Assembly (NCBI GenBank): GCA_013375375.1
Contig: JABXJX010000001.1
Coordinates: 15,517 to 67,194, forward strand
Source of the DNA: Desulfobacterales bacterium
GTDB taxonomy: Bacteria > Desulfobacterota > Desulfobacteria > Desulfobacterales > C00003060
Direction of reading: 5' to 3'
DNA: 51,678 bases
The notes beneath the pieces are model-generated. The model was given only the letters and a program-made list of their open reading frames with translations. It did not search any database and was not told the DNA's origin. This document shows positions 32,218 through 42,094 of the stretch, in pieces. Position 1 is the stretch's first letter. Each line of letters begins with the position of its first letter. The translations under genes were made by a program, and so were the position numbers.

Positions 32218-32400
32218 CAATTTGGTGAAATACTTTGTACCATGCGGATTTAAAGCCGGTCAACGAAATTTTCAAGCTCGGGGAAAGCGTCTCAAAACGG
32301 ACAAAATGGAGCGGCAAAAACGCTCCATTTCCGCTCCATGATCAGGTCAGGATTTGGTAGAGGGTTCGCCTACTCAAATCGTGCTGGCATAGACAATCCG

Positions 32401-32488
32401 GCGTCAGCCGAGCGAAGGAAAGGGGCCAGAGGCTGGCGTCAGAAAAGCACCTGCTTCTGGACGTCGAAACAAACGCATGAATGCATGA
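32401..32488 (+). repeat. 88-bp dispersed repeat, copy 1
   Basis: gcgtcagccgagcgaaggaaaggggccagaggctggcgtcagaaaagcacctgcttctggacgtcgaaacaaacgcatgaatgcatga; same length as copies 2 and 3. Confidence 0.93.
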
Positions 32489-32610
32489 CCAGCCTTTTCT
32501 ATGATCCCACTCAATAAATCACGCCATGGAATTCTTATGTCACCGACCCGTGCGGGCTTTGTGAGAGCGAGCTGCTGCCCCTGGAATTTCTGGGAATTTG
32601 TGGAAAATCC

Positions 32611-32682: not shown

Positions 32683-33876
32683 ATGTTTAAGAGGACAAAT
32701 TACAGCGTACTTCTGGGCAGATTGTCCGAATCCAGGCGCTTTATTCAGGTGCTGTCCGGCCCGAGGCAAACGGGGAAGACCACCCTCGCCCACCAGGTCA
32801 TGGCCGATTCCCAGTTGCCGAGCCACTATGCCTCTGCAGATGAGCCTACCCTGAAGGATCGCACCTGGATGGAACAGCAGTGGGAAGCAGCGCGGGCACA
32901 ACTCAAATCCGGACAGTACGCGAGAAAGGCGGTACTTGTTCTGGATGAGGTGCAGAAGATCACCGGCTGGTCCGAAACAGTAAAGCGATTATGGGATGAA
33001 GATACGTCCAACGGACTGCCACTCCATGTGATCGTTTTGGGATCATCGCCCCTGCTGGTACAGCGGGGCCTCACGGAAAGCCTTGCCGGACGATTTGAGG
33101 TCATGCCGGTTACACACTGGTCGTTTGCGGAAATGCACGAGGCGTTCGGGTGGGATGTGGAACAATACGTTTTCTATGGGGGATACCCCGGAGCCGCTGA
33201 TCTCATCCATGACCAGCAGCGGTGGTCCAGTTACATCATGAATTCCCTCATAGAGACCACGATTGCACGGGATATTTTGCTCATGACCAGGGTTGACAAA
33301 CCGGCTCTTTTGCGTCGCCTGTTCGAACTCGGCTGTTCCTATTCAGGCCAGGTTCTTTCATATCAGAAGATGCTGGGCCAGCTTCAGGATGCTGGCAATA
33401 CCACTACCCTTGCCCACTACTTGAATTTGCTCGGAGGCGCTGGGCTTCTGGAAGGCCTGCCGAAATATGCAGGCCAGCGGGTTCGCCAAAGGGCGTCCAG
33501 CCCGAAGCTTCAGGTACTTAATACGGCCCTGATAACGGCTCAATCCCAATTCAGCATGGAGGAAGCCAAGCGGGATACCAATTACTGGGGCCGGCTGGTT
33601 GAATCAGGTGTCGGTGCAACTCTAATCAATGGACTCAGAGGCAAAGGCATCGAGGTCTTCTACTGGTCGAGCCGTAATCAAGAAGTCGATTTTGTATTGT
33701 CCCGAGGTAATTCTCTGGTAGCCCTCGAGGTAAAGAGTGGACGTAGAAGGACCAGCTTGCCGGGTATTGAGGCTTTTTCTAAAGAATTTAGCGTAACGAG
33801 GAAGTTGTTGGTTGGGGCTCAAGGTATTCCGTTACGGGAGTTTTTGCTCGCGCCGCCAGAGGAATGGCTGCGCTGA
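32683..33876 (+). CDS. AAA_14 / DUF4143 family ATPase
   Basis: Walker A SGPRQTGKTTLAHQ; Walker B VLVLDEVQKI; GSSPLLVQRGLTESLAGRFEVMPVTHWSF; C-terminal ...VDFVLSRGNSLVALEVKSG nuclease-like fold segment. Confidence 0.93.
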   Translation: MFKRTNYSVLLGRLSESRRFIQVLSGPRQTGKTTLAHQVMADSQLPSHYASADEPTLKDRTWMEQQWEAARAQLKSGQYARKAVLVLDEVQKITGWSETVKRLWDEDTSNGLPLHVIVLGSSPLLVQRGLTESLAGRFEVMPVTHWSFAEMHEAFGWDVEQYVFYGGYPGAADLIHDQQRWSSYIMNSLIETTIARDILLMTRVDKPALLRRLFELGCSYSGQVLSYQKMLGQLQDAGNTTTLAHYLNLLGGAGLLEGLPKYAGQRVRQRASSPKLQVLNTALITAQSQFSMEEAKRDTNYWGRLVESGVGATLINGLRGKGIEVFYWSSRNQEVDFVLSRGNSLVALEVKSGRRRTSLPGIEAFSKEFSVTRKLLVGAQGIPLREFLLAPPEEWLR

Positions 33877-33907
33877 ATCTCCCCCCCCCTTTTTGTGCAC
33901 CGATCCA

Positions 33908-33995
33908 GCGTCAGCCGAGCCAAGGAAAGGGGACAGAGACTGGCGTCAGAAAAGCATCTTCTTCTCGACGCCGAAACAAACGCATGAATGCATGA
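33908..33995 (+). repeat. 88-bp dispersed repeat, copy 2
   Basis: gcgtcagccgagccaaggaaaggggacagagactggcgtcagaaaagcatcttcttctcgacgccgaaacaaacgcatgaatgcatga. Confidence 0.93.
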
Positions 33996-34014
33996 CTCTT
34001 TTTCACATACACAA

Positions 34015-34896
34015 TCACTGAAGTCTCAACTCCAACTCCATCTTGGCTCTAAGTTTGGTTTTCAGTTTGGCAACAAAAGCGTCCTTAGATGGAATGTTCG
34101 GGTTATTACGGAAAGCCTTAAAAAGATTGTCGATGGTGGAAGATTCAATTCTTCTCCGGTACAGTTCGTACTTTTCCCTCTTGTCTCTCAGGTCATATAT
34201 TGCAAAGACAGTGGAGTGCTCTTTATTGTACCTCATTCCATTAAGGTTATAACGATCCAGAAGGTTCTGATACACTGGTTCTTGCACTACCCAATATATC
34301 TTGTGACCCCACTTTTCGAGGACAATACCCTTGTTCAGAATCTGGGTGAATGAGCGCTTCCAGATATCAGCCATATTTAGCCCGAATGCGTAAGACTTCC
34401 CTTTAATATCTTTTCCCCCAAGACAATCTTTGAGTGCTTGAACCAACTTGCCTGTGCTTGTCGTCTGTCCTGTCTGAAATTCTATAATGACGAAATCCTC
34501 AATATCGCTGCTAAGCGGCTTGTGTTTCACCATCACGAAATCAAAATTTCCAGTGCCAGCGAGACCCACCTCACTAAAAAGCAATAGATTATCCCTTGTC
34601 TTGAAATAATGGTCTGCAATGTCTTTAAAGACAGTGTTGTTTTGCAGAAACCTCCTTGGAGATAACGCTATAACCTGATTGCCATACTGCACAGAGCATA
34701 CTCCCATAGGATATTTAACGAGACGGCTTTGTTTGTTGCATTTCTCATTTGCAAAAGGGCACCAATACCTCTTGCGGGCTGCTTTAGCTTTTGCTGATCT
34801 TGCCCTGATCGGATACCCAAATACTTCAGCGGGATGTTTTACCACTACCGTTTCCTCCAAGCAAGTGTTGCCACTCTCTGCGCATACTTTTTTCAT
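34015..34896 (-). CDS. NotI-family type II restriction endonuclease
   Basis: PAEVFGYP...YWCPFANEKCNKQSRLVKYPMGVCSV (Cys-rich metal site), FDFVMVKHKPLSSDIEDFVIIEFQTGQTTSTGKLVQAL, IWKRSFTQILNKGIVLEKWGHKIYWVVQEPVYQNLLDRY. Confidence 0.85.
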   Translation of the reverse strand: MKKVCAESGNTCLEETVVVKHPAEVFGYPIRARSAKAKAARKRYWCPFANEKCNKQSRLVKYPMGVCSVQYGNQVIALSPRRFLQNNTVFKDIADHYFKTRDNLLLFSEVGLAGTGNFDFVMVKHKPLSSDIEDFVIIEFQTGQTTSTGKLVQALKDCLGGKDIKGKSYAFGLNMADIWKRSFTQILNKGIVLEKWGHKIYWVVQEPVYQNLLDRYNLNGMRYNKEHSTVFAIYDLRDKREKYELYRRRIESSTIDNLFKAFRNNPNIPSKDAFVAKLKTKLRAKMELELRLQ

Positions 34897-36928
34897 TTAT
34901 ATCTGAGGCCAGAAACCAGCCTAACGCTGTTCCACAGTCACGGCAGAACGAATAGCTATCTGTGGTGTCAATTTTGCGAGGTTTGGACCATTTACGAGGT
35001 TCTCTCCTAACCGTCTTTGGTCTCAGAACCAGAATAGCATCGTGTTTGAGAGACTTAAGACCGAGGATATGCACAGAAACCGGGTTTTCGGAAAACACAA
35101 TGTAGCGGTTAACCAACAAGAATCCCGCCCTTTTCAAAGAGAGAGCTAGTTCGGCCCATGCCTCGTGACGCCAGTGATGGAAGGTAAAGATGAGCCGCCC
35201 TCCCTCTTTCTTGAGAGCACGGCAGCACATCTTCCAAATGTCTGCCAGTACCTCACCATATTTGCGACCGCTGGAAACGGTTCCATCCGATACGGCCGAG
35301 GCAAGGGGATTGTAATGCCAATCCGCTTCTCGAGGCGAAAATAGACGGAGCCAGACTCGAAAGAAGTTGGATAAATCGCTGTATTGGACACTATCATAGT
35401 AAGGGGGATCGGTAACCACATAATCAACGGTGTTTTCGGGAACATTAAGGGCGGATGCATCGCCCTGGAGTATTAAGACCTTGCGTTCTCCTGCGGTCAG
35501 AGCCTTCCAGTTGGATACTGGTTTTCCCCCGTCAATCTCGCCTATGACAGGAACTTTTACACGGTGGTTACCTACGATGCGGGTCTCAATCGGCTGAACG
35601 GCCCACTCCCCCGCTCTTATAATACGGTCGTTAAAGAGCCGGTTCAGCGTCCCCGATGTATTGCCGGAAAACACCATATTGTTTTCCAATGCCGTGTAAG
35701 GAAAAGAATAAGCGTGGTGAGAAAACACATGACGGATAGCCCCAGGTCGGCGAATATCACGTCCCTTATAACCGCAGAGAAGCGAATTAAACTCCAAGGA
35801 CGTTGAGATTAATAACACCATCCACAAACGATTCTCATCGGACAGTCGCGATAAGAAGTCCAGAGAAATGCTCAGATAAAGCAGCTGACGAGGCGTGAAT
35901 AACTCCTGAAAACTGCTAATGCCTCGCCTGAGGAGGTCGCCAGATTTGGGGCCGTCGGGGACACGAAAATTCTGTAAGTCTCCGAAATTGAGTGATTGAG
36001 CCAAAACACGGGCCTGTCGCAGCAACTCCAGATCGTTTTTGGTCACTTTTTTGAAGAACCTCCCATGCTTGGGACAGATTCCAGCAATGGCCAGAGGAAC
36101 GTAACGATCTGAAAACGGCTCGTCCAAGATGTCGACAAATGGCGTATCACATTTTTCGCAACGTTTAGTGCCTTTTACCATTAAGGACCTGTCCGTCCTG
36201 TGTCGGCACTTATGTTTCACGTTGTCAGTAAAAACGTCTCGGCATCTGTGACAGATGCGTACATCATGGTGATTACCCTCCCGCAGAAGAAAATCGTCAA
36301 CAAAGAGTACTTCTCTGCAGGAACATTTTCTGCGCAATCCGTACAAGAGAAATTGAGTTTCCGCGGTTTTCTTACAGGTAGGGCAGGCAGTTCGATACAA
36401 GGGAGCAAGTTTGTTTCTCAATGTATTGACAAATTGATCAAAGATGAGCTTCTTGTGACGCAGGGGTGATAGGTTTAGACTGGCTTTTGTTTGAAGAACG
36501 GGAACCGGATCGATGTCTACACCAATAACGTTAGCTCCCATCCGGATGGCCTCATGAAGCGTCGTCCCACCGCCCATCATGGGATCGAGTATGATCTTAC
36601 CCTCCAGACCCCCTGATTCGTAGAAATTCCGTTTACCTGATTCGGGAACAAGTTGCTTGAGAATGTAACGAAACGTGGTGCCTGAACGACGCGCCCACCA
36701 TTTGTGAAGGTAAGTATTGGGCCGATAGAGATGCTTGTTGTACGACTCAAGCTGTGCGAGCTTGTTTGCTGCCCCCTCGGGGAATGTCTCGTCAATGGGT
36801 ATCTCTTCTGTGCAAGGTTTTTCAGGTTGGTGGCCCTGAAAGTCGAATCCTATTTGAAGCGGTATGTGCATTAGATCTTTCATAGAATCGTGCGTGCGAG
36901 GACCGATTATACTGCCGTGAGAAAACAA
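34826..36928 (-). CDS. DNA methylase with Zn-ribbons (DUF1156-related / DPPY-type N6-A or N4-C methyltransferase)
   Basis: YRPNTYLHKWWARRSGTTFRYIL; GKIILDPMMGGGTTLHEAIRMGANVIGVDIDP; VDYVVTDPPYYDSVQYSDLSNFFRVWLR; several CxxC zinc motifs. Confidence 0.9.
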   Translation of the reverse strand: MFSHGSIIGPRTHDSMKDLMHIPLQIGFDFQGHQPEKPCTEEIPIDETFPEGAANKLAQLESYNKHLYRPNTYLHKWWARRSGTTFRYILKQLVPESGKRNFYESGGLEGKIILDPMMGGGTTLHEAIRMGANVIGVDIDPVPVLQTKASLNLSPLRHKKLIFDQFVNTLRNKLAPLYRTACPTCKKTAETQFLLYGLRRKCSCREVLFVDDFLLREGNHHDVRICHRCRDVFTDNVKHKCRHRTDRSLMVKGTKRCEKCDTPFVDILDEPFSDRYVPLAIAGICPKHGRFFKKVTKNDLELLRQARVLAQSLNFGDLQNFRVPDGPKSGDLLRRGISSFQELFTPRQLLYLSISLDFLSRLSDENRLWMVLLISTSLEFNSLLCGYKGRDIRRPGAIRHVFSHHAYSFPYTALENNMVFSGNTSGTLNRLFNDRIIRAGEWAVQPIETRIVGNHRVKVPVIGEIDGGKPVSNWKALTAGERKVLILQGDASALNVPENTVDYVVTDPPYYDSVQYSDLSNFFRVWLRLFSPREADWHYNPLASAVSDGTVSSGRKYGEVLADIWKMCCRALKKEGGRLIFTFHHWRHEAWAELALSLKRAGFLLVNRYIVFSENPVSVHILGLKSLKHDAILVLRPKTVRREPRKWSKPRKIDTTDSYSFCRDCGTALGWFLASDINEKSMRREWQHLLGGNGSGKTSR

Positions 36929-37040
36929 GTGCGGCTTTCTGCTCAGTATAAGATTAGAGTTGATCTGTGTAAATAGAAAAACTTACTATTTCGGCTTGTC
37001 CCGCATCGCCTTCTATCAATAGATAGTTTTTAAAATGGTC

Positions 37041-37076
37041 TATATTGTGGTATACATAAACCTAAAGCACAATATA
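37041..37076. promoter_or_regulatory. inverted repeat upstream of the methylase gene (possible operator)
   Basis: TATATTGTG (37041-37049) and CACAATATA (37068-37076), perfect 9-bp arms. Confidence 0.4.
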
Positions 37077-37237
37077 TTGCGTTTGTCAAGCGAAAAGGGG
37101 CTCCTGTTTAAGACCAAACACGCGTGTAAAAGAGGGGCGGCCATGTGTTTATGCGTTGCCAGTGGTAGGGAAATATGAATAAGGCTCGAATAAGGCGCGA
37201 AGAGCTTGCATCGATGCGCCGGGCGGGCAACATCACA

Positions 37238-37325
37238 TCATCTGCCGAGCGAAGGAAAGGGGACAGAGACTGGCCTCAGAAAAGCACCTGCTTCTTGACG
37301 TCAAAAGAAACGCATGAATGCATGA
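37238..37325 (+). repeat. 88-bp dispersed repeat, copy 3
   Basis: ...gccgagcgaaggaaaggggacagagactggcctcagaaaagcacctgcttcttgacgtcaaaagaaacgcatgaatgcatga; first ~6 nt diverged. Confidence 0.9.
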
Positions 37326-37579
37326 TCGTCCCTCTTATTCACTCCAAATGTCAATATTTCACGATGTCCCCTCTTTCACAGACAGGCGGGCGGTGGGATA
37401 GAGGGGTATTTTTAGTCTGAACATACTGGACTCACCCTTTTCTGGTAACGGTGGGTTCTTCTTGTTGGAATTTCTTGACAAAATTGAATATTTATATTTT
37501 AGTTGTTTTTCACAAGTCACCCTAAATTCAAACATAAGTCTATTTCCATTAATTCACAGAAAAGAGGAGATTGGATCAA

Positions 37580-38206
37580 ATGAACCTCGAAACTTCGCAA
37601 ACAGAACTAGAAGTCGTTAACATGATCATTCGTGAGTTGTCACACTTTGGCAAGGATATCCAGGCCAGACTAGTTCAAACAGTAGCAACATTTCTCAAGG
37701 TTGATATTTCGGGTAGCCCTGCGTCTCCGGGCGCAACAGCGCCCTATCCCCACAGGCTGAAGGAAACGGAATCTTCCGCATCCGGAGTCGGTTTTTCTGA
37801 AAGGGAGGACTTAAGCCCAAAAGACTTTCTTCTTGAGAAGGAACCAAGGACAAACCACGAGAGAGTTGCCTGCCTTGGATACTACCTGGCCCACTTTCGT
37901 GACACTCCTCACTTTAAGACTCTTGACATCAGCAAACTTAACACAGAAGCGGCGCAGGCAAAATTTACCAACGCCGCAGTTGCAGTAAAGGAAGCCACAA
38001 GAAGGGGAGTCCTTGTCCCAGCTGGGAAGGGGAAGAAGCAGTTAAGCGCTTTGGCTGAGCAGTATGTTCAAGCGTTGCCTGATACTGAAGCTGCAAAGAA
38101 GATTTTAAAACGCATTAAGCCAGCTCGGAAGAAGGCAGCCTCAGCCAAGGAAGGACAAACAAGAGCCCGGTCCGAAAGAAAACCGCTCGGGAAAAGCAAA
38201 TTATGA
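37580..38206 (+). CDS. small protein with basic C-terminal tail, first gene of ParA/RelA-SpoT operon (possible winged-helix)
   Basis: SPKDFLLEKEPRTNHERVACLGYYLAHFRDTPHFKTLDISKLNTEAAQAKFTNAAVAVKEATRRGVLVPAGKGKKQLSALAEQYVQALP; K/R/A-rich tail; ATG at 37580 with AGAGGAG upstream. Confidence 0.75.
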   Translation: MNLETSQTELEVVNMIIRELSHFGKDIQARLVQTVATFLKVDISGSPASPGATAPYPHRLKETESSASGVGFSEREDLSPKDFLLEKEPRTNHERVACLGYYLAHFRDTPHFKTLDISKLNTEAAQAKFTNAAVAVKEATRRGVLVPAGKGKKQLSALAEQYVQALPDTEAAKKILKRIKPARKKAASAKEGQTRARSERKPLGKSKL

Positions 38207-39189
38207 GTAAAGAAGCATTGCGGATAGCAATATTCAATCACAAAGGAGGAGTCGGGAAAACCACCCTAACCGTTAATATAGCGACAGCCCTGTCGGATTT
38301 AGGGAAGCGAGTCCTGTTGGTCGACTCCGATCCTCAGTGTAACCTCACATCGTACCTGATTGAAGATTCCGTAATCGATGACCTGTTAGATAAGTCCGAT
38401 GGACGGAACGGGGACACAATATGGTCAGCACTGAAACCAATAGTTGAAGCACGCGGCGGTCGGAAGAAAATTGCTGGCATTGAAGTGATAGACGATGGGA
38501 CCTATTTGATACCTGGTGACATAAGGCTTTCTGAGTTCGAAGCTGAATTGTCTGACTATTGGTCTGCATGTGTGGAAAGGAAAATAAGAGGATTCAGCGG
38601 TGTATCAGCGTTGGCCGAACTTGTCTCCGAATATGCCAAGAACAAAACAGTCGATTATGTTTTCTACGATACGGGTCCGAATATTGGGCCATTGAATAAA
38701 GTAATTCTCTTGGACTGTGATTATTTCATTGTGCCGGGAAGCTGCGATCTATTCTCAGTGCGAGCGCTCAAGACTTTAGGTCATACTCTCGTCACTTGGA
38801 TTACTAATTGGGAGACGATTTCTAAACTTGCACCAGACGGCTTACACTTATTGCGTGGGAAACCTAAGTTCCTCGGTTATATTCCCCAGGGATTCAGAAT
38901 TTATGCACAGACAATGGCCCGCAGGCCCGCTAGATACGCAGCAAGATTCGAAAAACAGTTACACAGTGATTTGATAGTTTTGCTTAGAACGGTAGACAAG
39001 GCCTTGTCAAAACCAGAAGTCAGGGGAGCAAGATTGGGCGAAGTTAAAGATTTCGGCTCATTGGTCCAAATGAGTCAGGAACAAGGTGTTGCATTTTGGT
39101 ATGTAGATGGCGCTCCGGAATACCAAACTAATGAGGCACGTGACGCTTTCCATGACATAGCGAAGTCCATTATTGCTAAGACAACTTAG
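38203..39189 (+). CDS. ParA/MinD-type ATPase
   Basis: Deviant Walker A FNHKGGVGKTTLTVNIATALSDLGKRVLLVDSDPQCNLTSYL; 4-bp ATGA overlap with upstream gene. Confidence 0.92.
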   Translation: MSKEALRIAIFNHKGGVGKTTLTVNIATALSDLGKRVLLVDSDPQCNLTSYLIEDSVIDDLLDKSDGRNGDTIWSALKPIVEARGGRKKIAGIEVIDDGTYLIPGDIRLSEFEAELSDYWSACVERKIRGFSGVSALAELVSEYAKNKTVDYVFYDTGPNIGPLNKVILLDCDYFIVPGSCDLFSVRALKTLGHTLVTWITNWETISKLAPDGLHLLRGKPKFLGYIPQGFRIYAQTMARRPARYAARFEKQLHSDLIVLLRTVDKALSKPEVRGARLGEVKDFGSLVQMSQEQGVAFWYVDGAPEYQTNEARDAFHDIAKSIIAKTT

Positions 39190-39198
39190 GCATAGGCT

Positions 39199-39924
39199 AT
39201 GCCCAAATCTAAACTGACTAAATCTATTCTGTCTCAGATTGATGCTGCGGTTAAGGTTTACGTGGAAAACCGAGATGACTTTAAGCATCTCGCAAAGACC
39301 TTGAGGGATGATCTGGTTGAAAACAAAAATCTTAGAAAATTCATTCATTCTACCAAATTCCGTGCGAAGAAGCCTGATAGTCTTCACGAGAAGCTGAAGC
39401 GACAAGCTATTGAGCGGATGGAGAAGGGTAAGCCATTTGAGATTACGAAAGACAATTTATTCAGCCAGATTACCGATCTTGCTGGTGTAAGAATTCTTCA
39501 TCTGCATACCAAACAAATGTCTGACATGCATTCAGCTATTCTGGATATTTTTCAAGAATACATGTACAGAGTCGTTCGCAAACCCGTAGCATATACATGG
39601 GATTTCGAAAACAAGCAGCTATTCGAAGACATGGGTTTAAAAACAAATATGCGTCGTTCCATGTACACAAGTATTCATTATGTTGTGGAGCCAAATCGAA
39701 GGACGAAATACCGGTGTGAGCTTCAGGTGAGAACATTAATGGAAGAAGTGTGGGGGGAAGTTTCCCATACCATCAACTATCCGGATCAAATTGATAGCGT
39801 AACATGTCAGGAGCAGCTAAGGGTGCTGGCCCGGGTTGCGTCAGGATGCACACGCCTAGTAGATTCAATCTTCCTTTCATACATAGAGCACGGAAAATTG
39901 GCCCCGAAAAAGCCGGGAAAATAG
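39199..39924 (+). CDS. RelA/SpoT-domain nucleotide pyrophosphokinase (synthetase-only)
   Basis: KFRAKKPDSLHEKLKR (RxKxxxSxxxK), ITDLAGVRILHL, RSMYTSIHYVV (YxSxH), CELQVRTLMEEVWGEVSH; no HD hydrolase domain. Confidence 0.92.
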   Translation: MPKSKLTKSILSQIDAAVKVYVENRDDFKHLAKTLRDDLVENKNLRKFIHSTKFRAKKPDSLHEKLKRQAIERMEKGKPFEITKDNLFSQITDLAGVRILHLHTKQMSDMHSAILDIFQEYMYRVVRKPVAYTWDFENKQLFEDMGLKTNMRRSMYTSIHYVVEPNRRTKYRCELQVRTLMEEVWGEVSHTINYPDQIDSVTCQEQLRVLARVASGCTRLVDSIFLSYIEHGKLAPKKPGK

Positions 39925-40237: not shown

Positions 40238-40753
40238 TTATTCTACGTTCAAGTAACCTGGATCAAAGGGCTCCTTTTTCTTCATCAAGGTCCATGCAAT
40301 GACTAACAGCTTTGCTGCAAGCTTCACGCGCATTTTGGTCCGGATGCCCTTTTCTCGCTCCCGGCCTCTGAGCAGTGTGGTGAAATAGGCCATAAAGCGA
40401 GTATTGGACACTGATGCGATAAGACCGGCTTGATATAGCGCATAGCGCAGATGCGCTTTACCCTTTTTTGAAATAACCGGTACAGCAGACGAGCTTTTCT
40501 GACCGCTTCGTTGAGCGCATAGATCAAGGCAGGCAAGCTTCAGGACTTGGCTTTGGTTTTCAAACCGATGAGCATTTCCTATGGCTGACAGAACAACAGC
40601 GGCAATGTATGGACCAAAACCCGGAATCGTCAAAAGTATCCTGTATTCATCAAAGCCCTTGCACAGTTGCTCGATAGAGGCTTCCACCTGGCTAATGTTT
40701 GGAACGGGGTCGGACCAAGCCAACTCGTTGACTTTACCTGACAATCTTTTCAA
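40238..40753 (-). pseudogene. IS110-family transposase, C-terminal (Transposase_20) part only
   Basis: LLTIPGFGPYIAAVVLSAIGNAHRFENQSQVLKLACLDL...VISKKGKAHLRYALYQAGLIAS; N-terminal DEDD catalytic domain absent. Confidence 0.85.
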
Positions 40754-40966: not shown

Positions 40967-42094
40967 ATGCTCTCTTTTACCCCCAGCAATAAAATAGAAA
41001 ATGAACTGAAGAGGCTCCAGGGGTTATTCGTGGAAACATATAAAGACCTGGAGGCTTTACCTCCTGACGAGGCAAGATATCTTCATCGTTTTGCCTTAAT
41101 CAGCAATATCGGAGCCTCCACCAGGATAGAAAATGCGGTTCTAACAGACCAAGAGATAGAATGGATCGATACGGCCTTGAACAAAAACGGTAAAGTAACC
41201 GCGTTTGAGGAGAAGAGAACTTTTATTCTGGATAAGTTGTCAAAAGATAGAGAACGAAGCGTTGAGGAGGTGGTTGGTTGCCGACAGGTGCTGACAACCG
41301 TCTACCTGCAAGCGAATGAACTTTTACCCTTAACGGAAGCTGTCATTCGGGGGCTTCATCATGATTTACTTCGATACCATCCCAAGGCTGCGAGTTATGC
41401 AGGAGGATATAAGACAACGCCGAGCCGAGTGGTTTCTATCAATCGCGACACTGGAGAAGAGCAGGTGGTTTTAGATCCATCTCCTCCGGGAGTTATCACG
41501 AGTACTGCAATGGCGGAGCTGGTGAAATGGTATAACAATGCCATCCGAGAACACCCTTGGCCCCTCTTGGTTGCCTCTGAGTTTGTTTTTCGATTCCTGG
41601 CCATCCACCCTTTCCAAGATGGTAATGGGCGGCTCGGGCGAGCCCTTTTTATTTTGGCCTTATTCCAGTCAGATGATAAGTATTTATCTGGTATTACCCC
41701 CTATATCGCCATTGACCGTCATGTTGAGCAAAACCGCCCCCTTTATTACGCCGTCCTTCATAAATGCTCTGGCGGCAGGTTTCAAGCTGAACCCACACAG
41801 TATAAGTTAGAGCCTTTAGCATGGTTTTTTATCAAGGCTATGGAATCTTCGTTAGCCGATGTTAAGTTCTACCGTAAGAAATATGCCAGCCTACAGAAGC
41901 TTTCAATATCGGCTCTGGCCGTTTTGAACTGCTTTAGATCCAGCCCGGAAAAACGCCTGAAGGTAGCTGAAATCGTAGAAGAGACGGAGCTACCCCGCCG
42001 CACCGTTCAATATGCCCTCAAGACACTTACCAGCCAACACTTTCTCAAGTCACTTGGGCGAGGAGCCGGAAGCCGTTATCAGCTTGTGTTTTGA
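40967..42094 (+). CDS. Fic-family protein with N-terminal inhibitory motif and C-terminal winged helix
   Basis: Fic motif IHPFQDGNGRLGR; STRIEN inhibitory (S/T)xxxE(G/N) motif; C-terminal VAEIVEETELPRRTVQYALKTLTSQHFLKSLGRGAGSRYQL HTH. Confidence 0.94.
   Translation: MLSFTPSNKIENELKRLQGLFVETYKDLEALPPDEARYLHRFALISNIGASTRIENAVLTDQEIEWIDTALNKNGKVTAFEEKRTFILDKLSKDRERSVEEVVGCRQVLTTVYLQANELLPLTEAVIRGLHHDLLRYHPKAASYAGGYKTTPSRVVSINRDTGEEQVVLDPSPPGVITSTAMAELVKWYNNAIREHPWPLLVASEFVFRFLAIHPFQDGNGRLGRALFILALFQSDDKYLSGITPYIAIDRHVEQNRPLYYAVLHKCSGGRFQAEPTQYKLEPLAWFFIKAMESSLADVKFYRKKYASLQKLSISALAVLNCFRSSPEKRLKVAEIVEETELPRRTVQYALKTLTSQHFLKSLGRGAGSRYQLVF

Follow-up and report, generated by a model that had tools for sequence, protein, structure and literature searches.

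A ParA-family ATPase and a synthetase-only RelA/SpoT enzyme form a conserved gene pair that looks like an anti-phage module

A gene for a ParA-family ATPase and, directly downstream, a gene for a synthetase-only RelA/SpoT enzyme (SAS) form a conserved and strongly linked two-gene unit. In the stretch of Desulfobacterales DNA analysed here (the window; 51,678 nucleotides), this unit is preceded by a gene for a basic winged-helix protein (gene 1). The ParA-SAS pair is the core of the system; gene 1 is an optional addition that goes with a separate subclade of ParA. Rather than a one-off cluster, the pair looks like an undescribed and widespread module directed against phages, an unlisted description being possible. 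A sequence-only reading of the window had proposed that gene 1 and ParA sense or restrain and that SAS is the effector; our results favour the division of roles between ParA and SAS but speak against gene 1 as a required partner.

Results

The locus and its surroundings

In the ORF listing, the three genes run in the same direction on the plus strand of the window (37580-39924), with a 4-bp ATGA overlap between genes 1 and 2 and a 9-bp spacer between genes 2 and 3 (Table 1), just as the sequence-only reading had described. Gene 1 likely starts at ATG 37580 rather than at TTG 37571 of the listing; AGGAG is found at 37565-37569, ten bases before this ATG, and an identical layout of AGGAG and ATG is seen at the locus of a relative from the same genus (L125). 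The left edge previously given to the locus, 37475, is the first base of a TTGACA box, at which no promoter was called in the promoter scan (weak -10).

Table 1. Positions of the features in the window
Feature	Position	Strand	Remarks
94-nt repeat, first copy	32396-32489		
DUF4143 ATPase	32683-33876		profile search
94-nt repeat, second copy	33903-33996		85-91% identical to first (second and third copies)
NotI-like endonuclease and DNA methyltransferase genes	34015-36928	-	endonuclease PF12183, 2.5e-12
94-nt repeat, third copy	37233-37326		
TTGACA box, candidate -35	37475-37480	+	upstream of gene 1; weak -10
Gene 1	37580-38206	+	208-aa basic protein; helical hairpin at the N terminus, disordered linker, winged helix at the C terminus, and basic tail
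Winged-helix domain of gene 1	37811-38119	+	residues 81-183 counted from TTG 37571; pLDDT ~97
Gene 2, ParA-family deviant Walker ATPase	38203-39189	+	328 aa; proposed sensor/switch
Identity break against L125	38241-38300	+	inside parA; likely recombination junction
Deviant Walker A KGGVGKTT of gene 2	38242-38265	+	invariant in ParA alignment
Gene 3, synthetase-only RelA/SpoT enzyme (SAS)	39199-39924	+	241 aa; proposed effector
Donor-nucleotide motif RxKxxxSxxxK of SAS	39361-39393	+	R55, K57, S61, K65
AYTWDFE motif of SAS	39589-39609	+	stretch without clear counterpart in solved RelP/RelQ
Acceptor-site loop YTSIHYVV of SAS	39664-39687	+	YTS form typical of ParA-linked SASs
Catalytic motif ELQVRT of SAS	39718-39735	+	E174, Q176, R178
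IS110-type transposase fragment	40238-40753		profile search
Fic protein	40967-42094		profile search

The neighbours that had been named for this locus, i.e., a restriction-modification (R-M) system, a DUF4143 ATPase, and a Fic protein, were all recovered when the window ORFs were searched with profiles. The endonuclease gene overlaps a DUF1156/N6_N4-type methyltransferase gene, which is an unusual architecture for a NotI-like nuclease. ORFs farther out, as read from their translations, presumably encode proteins resembling DnaA, a GlcD-type oxidase, Mfd, and PpiC/SurA. With core-like ORFs outside and accessory genes inside, therefore, the segment resembles an accessory island set among core genes. 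The 94-nt repeat flanks the DUF4143 ATPase gene and has one copy upstream of the three genes (the triad). In L125, unlike in the window, the triad is immediately preceded by the DUF4143 gene; the island has thus been rearranged, perhaps through the 94-nt repeat.

ParA and SAS share 98-99% protein identity with their homologues in L125, and gene 1 with its upstream region is about 66-73% identical. Identity to L125 is about 60-88% before a break near 38300 and mostly 95-100% after it, and the position of this break inside parA points to recombination between triads. The dN/dS ratio of parA against the congener is 0.10, indicating purifying selection, and that of the SAS gene against L125 is 0.48, a value resting on 14 differences. 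Of the 22 genus members listed, only 2 have a homologue of gene 1. The source genome is a 2.18-Mb draft in 197 contigs (87% complete) with one further RelA_SpoT gene, which lies in a 733-aa open frame and is taken as a long Rel.

Gene 3 encodes a synthetase with distinctive motifs

The product of gene 3 matches the RelA_SpoT family (PF04607; 3.7e-16; 59.9 bits against a cut-off of 27), and no HD hydrolase domain was detected in the profile search. The motifs RxKxxxSxxxK, DLAGVRI, YTSIHYVV, and ELQVRT are all present, and the protein is hence the synthetase-only enzyme with intact motifs that it had been taken for. Across 18 homologues, R55, K57, K65, D93, R98, Y156, E174, and Q176 are invariant, and S61 is kept in the window protein but variable among the homologues; all of these residues, S61 included, correspond to residues of the ATP and acceptor sites in FaRel2, in which the donor motif is formed by R64/K66/S70/K74 (PMC11782079). 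The match to the synthetase domain stops at residue 197 of 241. When profiles were searched against solved structures, SAS was closer to RelP/RelQ (1e-12) than to CapRel (about 0.08-0.09). Donor-site residues are common to ppGpp, ppApp, and tRNA enzymes.

Among SASs linked to ParA, ELQVRT is kept in all cases (93/93), and the acceptor loop has the YTS form in 92 of the 93. None of the other SASs checked has this form; their loops read YRS, YKS, YSS, YAS, or YDS. A strict AYTWDxE pattern is likewise confined to the ParA-linked SASs (72/93), being found in none of the others checked, so that this stretch and the YTS loop set the ParA-linked enzymes apart.

Gene 2 encodes a ParA-family ATPase

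Gene 2 matches AAA_31 (8.7e-29), and the intact deviant Walker A motif (KGGVGKTT) claimed for it can be read directly in the sequence; a deviant Walker A is also present in 91 of 93 SAS-linked ParAs. The predicted model is confident (pLDDT 89.5) with structural matches to 3PG5 and Soj, and the nearest solved structure is DIP2308 (PDB 3PG5; phmmer 2.5e-33; Foldseek 3.5e-17). With both the KGGVGKT[T/S] motif and the ParA fold, gene 2 belongs to the ParA family. No dedicated PADLOC model matched it, and the best match there (PDC-M28B, 8.5e-8) covers the Walker region only.

Gene 1 encodes a winged-helix protein

The gene 1 product has a pI of 9.8, and its domain layout (Table 1) comes from an AlphaFold2 model made with 26 homologues, in which the winged helix that had been noted as a possibility is indeed found. 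A Foldseek search with this domain retrieved generic winged helices only, none at E <= 0.001. No significant family match was obtained in Pfam, NCBIfam, PADLOC, PHROGs, or PDB sequences, nor was a ParB-family match seen in the profile search. The PDB sequence matches were designed helical proteins aligned over 30 residues and were judged spurious; membership of gene 1 in a described family was thus rejected for the libraries searched.

ParA is linked to SAS across distant genomes

The sequence-only reading had staked itself on the recurrence of the ParA-SAS linkage in other genomes, and the linkage proved to be strongly conserved. In a scan of bacteria and archaea (one genome per species), 204 relatives of SAS were confirmed and 80 loci kept, 79 of them analysable, and ParA was encoded directly upstream of SAS in 73 of the 79. 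The count becomes 76 of 77 after correction for start choice and for contig ends: ParA lies upstream in L139, L148, and L158 when the start codon is set inside an over-long ORF, and the SAS loci L161 and L197 are truncated where their contigs end. The sole true exception is L199. In loci of other SAS families (~3-9 kb of DNA each), ParA was found in none of 14. Because the scans were queried with SAS sequences only, the linkage is not built into them, and ascertainment bias was rejected as its source; chance neighbourhood was also rejected, given the linkage counts, the 0/14 controls, the recurrence in distant genomes, and the purifying selection on parA.

As for L199 itself (L199:5905-7329), a ParA-type SAS and a methyltransferase-like region share one ORF, which may result from gene fusion or from the assembly.

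The linkage extends to mobile elements. Viral contigs contained 20 SAS relatives, and in all of the 18 with a readable SAS ORF and upstream DNA, a ParA ORF was immediately upstream (gap, -47 to +4). The best plasmid relative (42%), on a Caballeronia megaplasmid, directly follows a ParA-like gene with a frameshift in its Walker A region; in Caballeronia sp. NK8 (L017:4850-5977), SAS is intact despite this frameshift in the preceding ParA gene. Overall, ParA-tied SASs are spread patchily over archaea and at least 16 bacterial phyla. Neighbours of the ParA-SAS loci include R-M, DUF1016, and integrase genes, but most flanking genes were not recognised defence genes in this survey, which had no control set.

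Triads and dyads are separate lineages

A gene 1 homologue is directly upstream of ParA in 28 of 94 ParA-SAS loci and absent from the other 66, and gene 1 as an essential part was rejected on this count. The two-gene form (the dyad) is thus commoner than the triad and is often in prophages; no conserved DNA-binding partner gene was found upstream in the dyad loci. The triad branch covers 13 phyla, counting L136, which is cut before the gene 1 position. Viral contigs gave a single triad (L208), and no gene 1 homologues were found in plasmids.

Triad ParAs form one clade (support 99; median 334 aa), and dyad ParAs a separate one (support 100; 62 of 63 members; median 369 aa). The SAS tree splits in the same way except for L190, in which a triad-type gene 1 and ParA are paired with a dyad-type SAS; in the ParA tree, L162 is the odd one, its ParA being placed near the triad branch. 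Since the two trees split alike, the pair evolves together and its parts are only rarely exchanged.

A group of phage-borne ParAs (L045-L050) is closest to the triad ParA (40-44% identity) as a sister clade, and these ParAs have neither an adjacent effector nor gene 1. The opposite strand next to ParA carries an integrase-like gene in L045 and L049.

The enzyme behind ParA is exchanged, and E. coli pairs sit in the P2 hotspot

On plasmids of Neorhizobium, Vibrio ponticus, and Burkholderia, the gene for the ParA relative overlaps a SIR2-family gene just downstream, and the gene after viral ParA relatives encodes SIR2 in six loci, SAS in six, and HEPN_RiboL-PSP in three. The nearest PADLOC model for the alternative effector SIR2_2 is ThsA (7.9e-16). 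Many other viral ParA relatives have no close downstream gene, and the ParA clade can therefore act without an effector. Two viral ParA relatives (L072:1617-2300 and L079:6056-6727) are followed by a 223-227-aa protein with the stretch FVAFLDILGF/IVAFVDLLGF, which is suspected to be cyclase-like, possibly of class III, and had no match in Pfam.

The ParA-SAS pair is present in 7 of 5,426 E. coli genomes, in P2-like prophages, where it is flanked on one side by the replication endonuclease gene gpA with a DinI-like gene and on the other by the portal gene, gpQ. A ParA-SIR2 pair is present in 12 E. coli genomes and lies in the gpA-portal interval in all three looked at. In the flanks of the viral set, five genes match gpA, and portal and terminase genes are also present. 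According to the main text of Rousset et al. (PMC9122126), the gpA-gpQ interval is a P2 anti-phage hotspot housing old, tin, and other tested systems; RelA and ParA are not mentioned in that main text. The E. coli ParA-SAS pairs are thus in a known defence locus. In one E. coli P2-like prophage (L229:3158-5050), a gene annotated as a P-loop NTPase fold protein precedes ParA-SIR2 in the same hotspot.

Discussion

We consider it probable that ParA-SAS is a ParA-gated toxic-effector module, most likely acting against phages through abortive infection or dormancy. A role in defence is suggested by the P2 hotspot, the prophages, and the neighbouring R-M genes. Because ParA relatives pair with SIR2 or HEPN genes instead of SAS, ParA would be the sensor or switch and the second gene the effector; with the ATPase constant and the enzyme behind it variable, sensing and control would be carried by the ATPase, and the damage would be done by SAS, SIR2, or HEPN. 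It is this modularity that suggests a sensing ParA, which may restrain or activate SAS. In the mechanism we propose, ParA would alternate on DNA between an ATP dimer and ADP forms and would hold the synthetase off in the uninfected cell. The trigger would be infection, perhaps perceived as a phage protein or as altered DNA. In triads, the signal would be read through DNA-bound gene 1, which would be a DNA-binding adaptor of this one branch. The shifted ATPase state would then release or activate SAS, which would move pyrophosphate from ATP either to the 3' ends of tRNA or to a nucleotide, giving (p)ppGpp or (p)ppApp, and growth would be halted before phage release.

More tentatively, and with slightly more doubt than belief, we suggest a ParA-switch immune family, in which a DNA-bound ParA/MinD-type sensor hub is combined with an exchangeable toxic enzyme and, in one branch, with a winged-helix recognition adaptor. 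The exchangeable enzymes would be an alarmone/tRNA pyrophosphokinase, a SIR2 NADase, a HEPN RNase, and perhaps the cyclase-like protein. Under this reading, some "plasmid partitioning" annotations in prophages would denote immune regulators.

No named system with the ParA-SAS architecture was found in Pfam, NCBIfam, and PADLOC (libraries dating from 2023-2026) or in the open-licence full-text literature, in line with the sequence-only reading, which had recognised none. PADLOC-DB 2.0 gave no full-length system match, the hits being weak or partial (PDC-M28B, PDC-S33, and mad8). PARIS, OLD, and other ATPase-effector systems are likewise small units of an ATPase and an effector, and OLD is native to the gpA-gpQ hotspot according to the main text of PMC9122126. 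The ATPase here is, however, of the ParA/MinD type and not of the ABC type, and the effector is SAS or SIR2/HEPN and not TOPRIM. Similarly, SIR2-based defence (ThsA, DSR, and SIR2-HerA) resembles the ParA relatives that have SIR2_2 as an alternative effector, but the partner here is a ParA ATPase.

The toxSASs (FaRel/FaRel2, PhRel, and CapRel) share with ParA-SAS a synthetase-only enzyme with intact donor and acceptor motifs and a regulator gene. The regulator here is, in contrast, a ParA ATPase, accompanied in some loci by a winged-helix protein, and the toxicity of the SAS is putative. No antitoxin family was matched by genes 1 and 2 in the libraries, and the SAS, at 241 aa with its domain ending at residue 197, has no fused C-terminal antitoxin domain of the CapRel type; its similarity to CapRel structures is also weak. 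Nonetheless, a small unit of two overlapping genes carried by prophages and mobile islands could be read as a toxin-antitoxin (TA) or addiction module that stabilises these elements, with ParA (with or without gene 1) as antitoxin and autoregulator and with SAS killing the cells that lose the element, defence being secondary or absent. SAS toxins are indeed known in TA modules (PMC11782079), and the alternative effectors SIR2 and HEPN are also toxin-like. Given, however, that ParA is a conserved ATPase larger than its effector, whereas usual antitoxins are small, and that the E. coli pairs occupy a slot where tested anti-phage systems cluster, we regard an addiction module as unlikely. The TA and anti-phage readings do overlap, since the prophage-borne, anti-phage CapRel is both (PMC9712102).

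Gene 2 shares its fold and deviant Walker A with the partition ATPases ParA/Soj, but it is tied to an effector enzyme and not to parB. A partition or positioning system, in which ParA (with gene 1 as a ParB-like partner) would move or tether element DNA and SAS would be a coupled regulator or a passenger, would agree with the strong ParA fold, with the ParB-type layout of gene 1 (N-terminal helices, flexible linker, and DNA-binding domain), and with the putative plasmid partitioning system that the main text of PMC9122126 reports at the same hotspot in roughly one in four E. coli P2-like phages. Such a system is, however, quite improbable, as the dyads, which are the majority, have no conserved DNA-binding partner gene upstream, the loci lie in chromosomes or are integrated, a search of the DNA before the window module (36900-37620) gave no array of direct repeats, and the presence of SIR2 in place of SAS would be left unexplained. 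A non-defence regulator, in which an ATPase would control a (p)ppGpp synthetase serving ordinary adaptation to stress, would accord with RelP/RelQ-type (p)ppGpp synthetases as the closest solved enzymes, with the long Rel also present in the source genome, and with extra SASs for stress being common, but it has little to recommend it against the patchy, mobile distribution, the prophage hotspot location, and the exchange with SIR2 and HEPN effectors.

ParA ATPases are usually viewed as machines for positioning DNA and organelles. If ParA-SAS is a ParA-gated defence module as we favour, the ParA ATPase cycle would have been recruited as a switch of immunity or toxicity, and many "ParA" genes in prophages and islands would be explained. 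The SASs concerned are a large family with clear sequence marks (YTSIHY and AYTWDxE), and the occurrence of both the SAS and SIR2 versions in P2-like prophages of sequenced E. coli offers a ready model.

Distant relatives of the gene 1 winged helix are also present in other gene contexts. In L222 (3869-5330) and L219 (1052-2471), a distant gene 1-like winged-helix protein is encoded in each case by a gene overlapping that of an unassigned protein; the partner ORFs, of 274 and 313 aa, have features in common and may represent another two-gene unit.
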